From: Pseudobacteriovorax antillogorgiicola | Lineage (GTDB): Bacteria; Bdellovibrionota_B; Oligoflexia; Oligoflexales; Oligoflexaceae | Reading direction: 5' to 3' | NCBI RefSeq assembly: GCF_900177345.1 | Contig: NZ_FWZT01000006.1 | Span: 62,001-126,000, forward strand | Length of the DNA: 64,000 nt | Shown here: piece by piece, positions 18,720 through 21,240 of the stretch | Layout: every line of letters begins with the position of its first letter | How positions within the stretch are numbered: the first letter of the stretch is position 1 | The notes under the pieces: model-generated | Seen by the model: only the letters and a program-made list of their open reading frames with translations | Database searches by the model: none | Told to the model about the DNA's origin: nothing | Program-made: the position numbers and the translations under genes

Positions 18720-18726
18720 GACTCCA

Positions 18727-18761
18727 GAACGAGGAGAGGCTTTGGCCTACTCTCCTCGTTC
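18727..18761. terminator. Bidirectional terminator, secreted protein gene / aroF
   Basis: GAACGAGGAGAG pairs perfectly with CTCTCCTCGTTC (12 bp) across an 11-nt loop. It lies between the stop at 18719 (+) and the aroF stop at 18781 (-) and is followed on the + strand by TTG. It is the only hairpin between the convergent genes. Confidence 0.75.
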
Positions 18762-18780
18762 TTGTGGAAGAATGACTACC

Positions 18781-19908
18781 CTAAAGCCACGGACTTACCG
18801 CTAGCATGAGCGCTTCAAAACGATCAAACTTAAGTGATTGAGGGCCATCGCTCAAGGCTTCTTCGGGCTTCGGATGAATTTCGATCATGATCCCATGTGC
18901 ACCTACCGCAAACGATGCTCTTGATAGGTCCAAGATATATTGCCATTTGCCAGCAGCATGTGAGGGATCCACAATAACTGGCAGGTGAGATCGCTCCTTG
19001 ACAACGGGCACTGCTGAAATATCAAGGGTATTGCGCGTACTTTGATCGAAACTTCGAATGCCTCGCTCGCAAAGAATAACATCCCGATTACCGTGGGCCA
19101 TCACGTATTCAGCAGATGAAAGCCATTCGTCAATGGTTGCCATCAAACCTCGTTTTAGCACCACCGGCTTGCCCGCCTTACCCAAAGCTCGTAGGAGATC
19201 GAAATTCTGCATGTTCCTAGCACCAACCTGAAGCAAGTCGCTGTGCTTGGCGACGACTTCAACCTGATCGATGGCCATAACCTCGGTAACCACTGGCAGG
19301 CCGTATTCCTTGCCTGCATTCTCTAGCAATTTTAGGCCTTCGACCCCCATCCCCTGGAAACTATAGGGAGAACTTCGGGGTTTAAAGCAGCCTCCTCTTA
19401 GAATGTGGGCGCCCTGTTGCTTAGCCTGGGCAGCACATTCCATGATTTGCCCCTCAGACTCAACCGCGCAAGGACCAGCAATAACAGTTCTATGATCGCC
19501 GCCAATGACCACCTCGTTAACACTAACAAGGCTATCTTCAATGTGGTTTAGACGACTAGCTAGCTTATACGACTTTTTTTCTAATGCTTCTGAGAGACTT
19601 GGAGGGAGGGTCTGGGGAGATGGGGCGTGGCCTCTGGCCTTTTTTTGCAGCTTCACTGACTCTTGCATGATGGTTTTGAAAAGGCGAACAATGGGTGATG
19701 GATCCACATTTTCTTGCTCAGCCAGGGCTTGTATGCCTTGGAGAATCTGGGCTTCCCGCCCATGGTCCCTCGCTGGCCAGTCTAGGCCTTGCTTGGCATG
19801 AAGAATGGACTGAATCGACTGGAAACGGGCAATCAATTGCTTCGTGAGATCATGATCAATGTGATCGAGCTGCTGGCGAATAGCTGAAATCTGATGCGAG
19901 CTGGACAT
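18781..19908 (-). CDS. aroF: Bifunctional chorismate mutase / DAHP synthase
   Basis: A 375-aa fusion. Residues 1-95 form an all-helical AroQ-type chorismate mutase ('SAIRQQLDHIDHDLTKQLIAR'-like first helix, split here by convention). Residues about 120-375 are a type I-beta DAHP synthase with 'VIAGPCAVES', 'RGGCFKPRSSPYSFQG', 'VVLKRGLMAT', 'ILCERGIRSF' and 'VDPSHAAGKW'. It condenses PEP and erythrose 4-phosphate at the start of the shikimate pathway. In this architecture (for example Bacillus AroA) the mutase part acts as the allosteric site for chorismate/prephenate. AAAGGAAAGTC precedes the ATG. Expression is very probably set by the leader peptide and attenuator at 19952-20131. Confidence 0.95.
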   Translation of the reverse strand: MSSSHQISAIRQQLDHIDHDLTKQLIARFQSIQSILHAKQGLDWPARDHGREAQILQGIQALAEQENVDPSPIVRLFKTIMQESVKLQKKARGHAPSPQTLPPSLSEALEKKSYKLASRLNHIEDSLVSVNEVVIGGDHRTVIAGPCAVESEGQIMECAAQAKQQGAHILRGGCFKPRSSPYSFQGMGVEGLKLLENAGKEYGLPVVTEVMAIDQVEVVAKHSDLLQVGARNMQNFDLLRALGKAGKPVVLKRGLMATIDEWLSSAEYVMAHGNRDVILCERGIRSFDQSTRNTLDISAVPVVKERSHLPVIVDPSHAAGKWQYILDLSRASFAVGAHGIMIEIHPKPEEALSDGPQSLKFDRFEALMLAVSPWL

Positions 19909-19951
19909 GACTTTCCTTTCTCGCCCTATTCGCTAGGCTCAATCCAACAAA

Positions 19952-20009
19952 AAAGCCCTAGCGATCTGCTAGGGCTTTGATTTTATCGAAAAAACGACTC
20001 TTCCCTAGC
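19952..20009 (-). promoter_or_regulatory. Transcription attenuator of aroF (terminator and antiterminator)
   Basis: On the minus strand, an 11-bp stem AAAGCCCTAGC / GCTAGGGCTTT with a 5-nt loop (19978-19952) is followed by a T-run, a typical intrinsic terminator 44 nt before the aroF start. A second GCTAGGG (20009-20003), overlapping the leader peptide stop codon, can pair with the CCCTAGC of the terminator's first arm. That pairing forms an antiterminator that excludes the terminator. TAGCTA upstream, inside the aromatic codon run, can pair with the same segment as a 1:2 pause hairpin. These are the four segments of a Trp/Phe-type attenuator. Confidence 0.85.
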
Positions 20010-20131
20010 TATCTGAAGTAGCTAAAATAGAAAAAGCCTACAAAATAAAAGGAGCCAAATGCACTTAGAGTGCTCTGGATATAAGTTTTAAAATTGGCTA
20101 ACTGCACCACTTTCGGCTCCTTTGTTGACAT
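20009..20131 (-). CDS. Phe/Tyr-rich leader peptide of aroF (40 aa)
   Basis: ATG 20131 to TAG 20009. Residues 28-40 read FYFVGFFYFSYFR: nine of twelve residues at 28-39 are Phe or Tyr (six Phe, three Tyr). The stop codon overlaps antiterminator segment 2. A ribosome stalled at these codons for lack of charged tRNA-Phe or tRNA-Tyr would leave segment 2 free and allow read-through. A ribosome that reaches the stop would cover it and allow termination. It is longer than the E. coli PheL-type leaders and has only a weak Shine-Dalgarno (TTGAGATAG). No promoter could be assigned with confidence: TTGACT at 20171-20166 lacks a good -10. Confidence 0.85.
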   Translation of the reverse strand: MSTKEPKVVQLANFKTYIQSTLSAFGSFYFVGFFYFSYFR

Positions 20132-20203
20132 CGCCAATGCTATCTCAAGTAAAAATCAAATAGCAAGTCAAAAAAAGATTTTTTTTATTCTGATCTGCGA
20201 AAG

Positions 20204-20274: not shown

Positions 20275-21240
20275 ATGCTTACTCTTGTTATCGCTCTTCT
20301 GCTTGGTCTGGTCGTATTAATTTTCAGCGCCGATAAATTTGTTTTAGGAGCAGCAAATGTAGCGAGACATTATAAAATGTCGCCACTGCTCATTGGGATG
20401 CTCATCATTGGCTTCGGCACCTCGGCCCCGGAAATCCTCATCTCTTTTATGTCTGCCCTCGATGGTAAGCCGGCCTTAGCATTGGGCAATGCCTATGGCT
20501 CTAATATTGCCAATATAGCTTTGATATTGGGAGTCACTGCCTTGATATCTCCCATTGCGGTTCACTCCTCGATTGTTCGAAAAGAGATTCCGATACTCCT
20601 TGGCATCACAGCCTTATCCATCGCATTGATAATAGATTTTAAATTAAGCCGAGTAGACGGCATTATTCTTCTGGCAGCTTTCATCGTGTTGATGATTTGG
20701 ACGGTCAAAACAAGTAAGTCTAGCCCCCAGGATGAGCTTGGGCAGGAGGTGAATCAAGACTTGGGCGATTCTCCCCTCCCCCTCGGTAAAGCGCTTCTGT
20801 TTCTCTTGGGCGGGCTTATCTTTCTTCTGATAAGCTCCCGGATGATGGTCTATGGCGCTGTTGGAATTGCCCAAATCTGGGGGCTTGATGAGCTGGTTAT
20901 CGGGCTAACAGTTGTGGCGATTGGAACGTCCCTTCCAGAGTTAGCATCGTCTGTGACCGCTGCGTTAAAAGGGGAACCTGATTTAGCTCTTGGGAATGTC
21001 CTTGGTTCAAACTTATTTAATACCCTGGCCGTTGTTGGAATATCCGCAAGTATTGCCGAGATCGATATTAGTACCGTCGTACTCTATCGAGATGTGTCAG
21101 TCATGGTTGGGTTAAGCCTCGCTCTTTTTGTTTTTGCATTCGGTTTTCGAGGGCAAGGCAGAATCAATAGGATTGAAGGGACTCTATTTTTGTCGTGCTT
21201 TGTTGCTTACACAGCATACCTTGTAATGGTTTCTGTTTAA
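20275..21240 (+). CDS. Na+/Ca2+ antiporter, CaCA family (YrbG type)
   Basis: A 321-aa inner-membrane protein with about ten hydrophobic segments and the two family-defining alpha repeats. These are 'GFGTSAPEILISFMSAL' followed by 'ALGNAYGSNIANIALILG', and 'AIGTSLPELASSVTAAL' followed by 'ALGNVLGSNLFNTLAVVG'. The acidic residues of the two repeats (PE..S) bind the cation. GGAG lies 8 nt before ATG 20275. It is monocistronic, divergent from the aro leader and closed by a terminator. The family exchanges Ca2+ for Na+ or H+. Confidence 0.93.
   Translation: MLTLVIALLLGLVVLIFSADKFVLGAANVARHYKMSPLLIGMLIIGFGTSAPEILISFMSALDGKPALALGNAYGSNIANIALILGVTALISPIAVHSSIVRKEIPILLGITALSIALIIDFKLSRVDGIILLAAFIVLMIWTVKTSKSSPQDELGQEVNQDLGDSPLPLGKALLFLLGGLIFLLISSRMMVYGAVGIAQIWGLDELVIGLTVVAIGTSLPELASSVTAALKGEPDLALGNVLGSNLFNTLAVVGISASIAEIDISTVVLYRDVSVMVGLSLALFVFAFGFRGQGRINRIEGTLFLSCFVAYTAYLVMVSV

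Follow-up and report, generated by a model that had tools for sequence, protein, structure and literature searches.

A predicted leader-peptide transcription attenuator upstream of a chorismate mutase-DAHP synthase gene in Pseudobacteriovorax antillogorgiicola

The region upstream of aroF in the window (the whole 64,000-nucleotide stretch of Pseudobacteriovorax antillogorgiicola DNA that was analysed) is, in all likelihood, a ribosome-mediated transcription attenuator within the aroF 5' UTR. Judged from the sequence, the attenuator is very probably real and functional, with Phe likely the main signal and Tyr, proposed alongside Phe in the initial annotation, a plausible second one. For this region we infer the transcription start, leader translation, actual termination and the response to amino acids. 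The full set of elements for ribosome-mediated attenuation claimed in the initial annotation was present, folding with a masked ribosome behaved as predicted, and a matching attenuator was found in one relative, G023. The features of the region, all on the minus strand, were as follows.

18781 to 19908, minus strand: aroF, encoding a type II chorismate mutase plus a class I DAHP synthase, 375 aa (Pfam)
19952 to 19978, minus strand: intrinsic terminator (3:4), AAAGCCCTAGC-AGATC-GCTAGGGCTTT followed by a T run, with a perfect 11-bp stem
19968 to 19974, minus strand: segment 3, CCCTAGC, predicted 3' strand of the antiterminator and 5' arm of the terminator
19996 to 20038, minus strand: predicted protector hairpin (1:2), the control-codon segment paired with TAGCTAGGGAAGAGTC (MFE fold)
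20003 to 20009, minus strand: segment 2, GCTAGGG, predicted 5' strand of the antiterminator, beginning on the last base (G) of the leader stop codon
20009 to 20110, minus strand: leader ORF with probable start GTG 20110, 33 codons, (M)VQLANFKTYIQSTLSAFGSFYFVGFFYFSYFR* (sequence, masked folding, ORF survey and the similar G023 leader)
20024 to 20050, minus strand: predicted control codons (masked-ribosome folding)
20117 to 20123, minus strand: AAAGGAG, probable leader Shine-Dalgarno sequence, with 6-nt spacing to GTG 20110
20131, minus strand: alternative leader start ATG, giving 40 codons to the stop TAG at 20011-20009
20161 to 20171, minus strand: promoter-like TTGACTTGCTA box, weak and with no clear -10

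The aroF product matched PF01817 (CM_2; 1e-15) and PF00793 (DAHP_synth_1; 3.8e-83), and the gene had its own Shine-Dalgarno sequence and an ATG at 19908. The domain order, an N-terminal type II chorismate mutase (CM) followed by a C-terminal class I DAHP synthase (DAHPS), was that of the Bacillus-type fused enzyme named in the initial annotation, but the DAHPS domain grouped with CM-prephenate dehydratase (PDT)-DAHPS fusions, in a tree from which Bacillus and Listeria rows were absent. On this tree the window and G023 sequences fell together (95/56) and the pair was nested in the CM-PDT-DAHPS triple-fusion group (98/91), with the Clostridial group separate. PDB matches were 4grs, 1rzm and 3nvt; the 3nvt match was near full-length, and 4grs and 1rzm on the DAHPS domain alone outscored 3nvt over its full length. 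Three DAHPS genes were found in the window's genome, namely the window's aroF, an AroG-type gene (C15) and a type II gene (C9), and the leader stood at the window's gene only. Positions 18720-18780, between the convergent aroF and 17772-18719 genes, contained an inverted repeat, AACGAGGAGAG..CTCTCCTCGTT, which is possibly a terminator common to both.

Nine Phe and Tyr residues lay within 12 codons of the leader ORF (residues 28-39 when the 40-aa ORF is numbered from ATG 20131), in agreement with the aromatic-rich leader originally described. ORFs of 8-70 codons were surveyed in 404 kb of the window's genome (the window plus other stretches) by counting Phe and Tyr in any 12 codons. Among these 10,239 short ORFs the leader, with nine, was the only one to reach at least eight; one other ORF had seven and the rest had six or fewer. 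The leader probably begins at GTG 20110 (start codon 20110-20108, the first of GTG GTG) and is about 33 codons long, a start preferred because AAAGGAG stands 6 nt before the GTG and ATG 20131 has no Shine-Dalgarno sequence. ATG 20131 was rejected on this ground, the control region is the same with either start, and at 33 codons the peptide is not of unusual length, contrary to what had been claimed for it. The ORF ended in FGSFYFVGFFYFSYFR-TAG, followed on the minus strand by CTAGGG, a spacer and the terminator.

The terminator, between the leader and aroF, had a 10-bp core of -17.2 kcal/mol. It was assigned to the aroF 5' UTR because the neighbouring gene upstream of the aroF leader, at 20275-21240 (Na/Ca exchanger family), is divergent and there is no other minus-strand unit that a terminator at 19978-19952 would serve. 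The ORF could instead encode an independent small hydrophobic protein, such as a membrane peptide or type I toxin, that owns this terminator and leaves aroF to a promoter downstream, and the C-terminal half of the peptide is indeed hydrophobic and ends just before the terminator. This explanation is very unlikely, since the residues are Phe and Tyr and not the Leu, Ile and Val usual for membrane peptides, the terminator arm recurs at the stop codon, the roughly 40 nt between the terminator end and the aroF start leave little room for a promoter, and the same arrangement precedes the DAHPS fusion of G023. A consensus scan of the region returned no clear promoter and also missed the TTGACTTGCTA box, for which TAGCAT at 20142-20137 is a possible -10. 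The sequence GACTTGCTATT, common to the window and G023, was considered as a conserved promoter and set aside as not clearly promoter-like.

The attenuator reading depends on GCTAGGG (20009-20003), which is complementary to CCCTAGC (19974-19968) and is also a copy of the terminator arm. Pairing of this segment at the leader end with the first arm of the 11-bp terminator had been proposed at the outset, and all of the elements it requires are present in the sequence. The region fold was more stable than 200 of 200 shuffles (z = -4.0). A complementarity of 7 nt was attained in 117 of 2000 shuffles (6%), and the comparison with G023 matters for that reason; on its own the 7-nt antiterminator is weak evidence, and the case is strengthened by the 10-nt match in G023, which was attained in 3 of 2000 shuffles.

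Folding was carried out for the window and G023 with a 29-nt ribosome mask and with the RNA extending no further than the terminator loop. The GCTAGGG:CCCTAGC antiterminator had a probability of 0.78-1.0 with the P-site at codons 18-29, 0.36 at codon 30, and 0 from codon 31 through the stop codon; it was about 0.14 with no ribosome and likewise with a ribosome on early codons. In GTG numbering, the antiterminator was favoured by stalls at F21, Y22, F23, F26, F27, Y28 and F29, and little or not at all by stalls at Y31 and F32. The G023 region gave the same on/off pattern around its aromatic run. With full-length RNA the terminator was the most stable form in every case, and therefore the switch must be kinetic, as other attenuators are.

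In the proposed mechanism, a ribosome would begin the leader behind the polymerase, probably at GTG 20110. When charged tRNA-Phe (perhaps also tRNA-Tyr) is scarce, it would stall on the Phe/Tyr run and mask the protector hairpin's first strand, leaving GCTAGGG free to pair with CCCTAGC, so that the terminator is blocked and aroF is transcribed. When charged tRNA is ample, the ribosome would reach the stop codon and cover GCTAGGG, the terminator would form, and the transcript would end near 19945. With no translation, GCTAGGG would be held in the protector hairpin and termination would again be favoured.

Control of another kind, in which the terminator is constitutive or answers to a protein, Rho or a metabolite instead of leader translation, has only the slightest probability. 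The link from leader to termination is a computed one and the whole region folds strongly, both of which such control would accommodate; against it, the aromatic codons stand ahead of an aromatic pathway gene, segment 2 would be covered by a ribosome positioned at the stop codon, and in an Rfam scan of the window no riboswitch or T-box scored above threshold. An additional level on the attenuator was also considered, in which a AAAGGAGCC/GGCTCCTTT helix would hide the leader Shine-Dalgarno sequence once the control codons are transcribed and admit an early ribosome only. The helix is 9 bp long, perfect and part of the predicted fold, but one of equal length arose in 20 of 300 shuffles (about 7%) and none was present in G023; it was rejected as a conserved element, and the additional level is improbable.

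The strongest evidence for the attenuator, at the level of sequence, is the concerted change of its three competing segments in G023. In a search of 58 genomes of the phylum at a match cut-off of E 1e-50, only three besides the window's genome had matches: G023, G010 and G014. G023, from a different family of the same order, was the sole close match (61% identity over the DAHPS domain), and its gene is a CM-prephenate dehydratase-DAHPS fusion. The G023 leader ended in ..AFVLSAFFSFYSAFFFFYFFSVLLGIG; its final codons contained GCTGGGG, and the terminator AAAGCCCCAGC-AAACA-GCTGGGGCTTT followed. The segments GCTAGGG/CCCTAGC/GCTAGGG of the window thus correspond to GCTGGGG/CCCCAGC/GCTGGGG in G023, with one position differing in all three (A to G, T to C and A to G) and both alternative helices kept.

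Local alignment of the window and G023 from leader to terminator scored 71 (maximum of 49 in 500 shuffles), and the leaders alone scored 47 (none of 2000 codon shuffles exceeded 45); when the aromatic segment alone was shuffled, 47 was reached in 2 of 2000. Arms like those of this terminator occur widely, and part of the likeness may be convergent. The G023 copy did not stand out in a genome-wide DNA search, and DNA similarity as a route to more attenuators was abandoned, as it yielded only short T-rich or terminator matches. Conservation of the leader upstream of orthologues, proposed initially as a check, held in one relative, G023; no such leader was present in G010 and G014, two further members of the order that also had a DAHPS match but are more distant.

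Control loci were searched for comparable leaders. None was found at 30 type II DAHPS loci, where the best ORF had 6 aromatics in 12 codons and 2-4 was usual. None was found upstream of the trpE, pheS, hisG and ilvB-like genes of the window's genome, or directly upstream of pheA genes with their own upstream region, save for cases of the G043/G049 type. General leader attenuation in the window's genome was accordingly rejected, there being no clear leaders at its trpE, pheS, pheA, hisG and ilvB-like genes.

More widely, 83 sense regions upstream of DAHPS genes were examined, mostly from the genome collection and including that of the window. At least seven aromatics per 12 codons were found in 18 of the 83, versus one antisense region. 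Clostridium and Pelosinus accounted for most of the 18, with a conserved leader and terminator. This conserved family of Phe/Tyr/Trp leaders before DAHP synthase, found in Clostridium and Pelosinus and in their relatives, comprised L033, L034, L040, L043, L047, L058, L061, L066, L069, L084, L086, L094, L095, L105 and L106, and a terminator accompanied most of these leaders. Antiterminator matches of 7-8 nt occurred in about half of the tested leaders of this type (combined p about 0.0007), and a TAATGAGT/ACTCATTA antiterminator was frequent. Rfam held no matching leader family for the scanned Clostridium and Pelosinus leaders. Like the window's region, these examples (e.g., L043, L086 and L058) combine a Phe/Tyr(/Trp) leader with a terminator, and about half of the tested ones also have an antiterminator; they differ in having their own conserved peptide (..WGFYFSAGYLFC..), the TAATGAGT/ACTCATTA pairing and a DAHPS placed elsewhere in the tree.

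Two class relatives, G049 (L145) and G043 (L146), had Phe/Tyr leaders (..SFYFYSFRFYNY and ..SFYSFRFYNF) before an AroG-type DAHPS followed by pheA, with no obvious terminator seen at either. In L145 and L146, the leader UUCCUU could pair with the DAHPS Shine-Dalgarno sequence (AAGGAA in L146), which hints at control of translation. Triple fusions of CM, prephenate dehydratase and DAHP synthase occurred in several phyla (L002/L115 from G023, L031, L064, L046 and L049), and L075 and L083 apparently had dehydratase and DAHPS parts. L077, on a contig labelled as a Nanoarchaeota MAG and possibly mis-binned, had MKSAGIRKSMVFLAVSFFSFFGYYFFYW ahead of DAHPS and no clear terminator.

Independent gains of DAHPS attenuators are the simplest reading of this distribution. 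There is an even chance that Phe/Tyr attenuators arose repeatedly and independently before structurally different DAHP synthases, and that the window's lineage kept its attenuator while the gene lost or gained a prephenate dehydratase domain. The types concerned would be CM- and CM-PDT-fused enzymes (the window's order), AroG-type (the class), standalone (Clostridia and Acholeplasma) and aroF (Corynebacterium). Together, the window and the Clostridia and Pelosinus leaders unmatched in Rfam suggest several captures of the shikimate entry point by attenuation. The predicted attenuator would extend leader-peptide control of this entry step to a lineage for which no report of leader control of DAHP synthase was found in open-licence PMC papers, and would tie it to a triple fusion carrying CM, prephenate dehydratase and DAHP synthase.

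Among known systems, the pheA and pheST attenuators of Enterobacteria share with the window a Phe-rich leader and competing protector, antiterminator and terminator stems; the gene and the bacteria are different, and membership in Rfam RF01859 (Phe_leader) was rejected, the window's 24.7 bits falling short of the gathering threshold of 55. Leader peptides of Firmicutes have been noted for hisS (PMC2965389). The uORFC-13-1 motif of Acholeplasma, proposed from comparison only, is found exclusively upstream of aroF and likewise has a leader ORF with Phe codons and a terminator; it differs in belonging to Mycoplasmatota, in being described with at least one Phe codon and in an extra base-paired substructure (PMC8632094). 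L053 and L055 probably contain this motif. In Corynebacterium glutamicum aroF, a Phe-Tyr-Phe leader peptide, aroR, precedes the DAHP synthase gene and ribosome stalling raises transcription; the response is reportedly to Phe and not Tyr (PMC11802643; PMC4046766; both describing Neshat et al., 2014). Likened on that description only, aroR has a much shorter aromatic run, lies in a different phylum and differs in its reported Phe-not-Tyr response. The control principle is therefore known from the C. glutamicum and Acholeplasma precedents; what is new here is the lineage, the link to the triple fusion, the distinct Clostridia and Pelosinus leader family with no Rfam match and, within the same class, the Phe/Tyr leaders that precede a DAHP synthase of another type.
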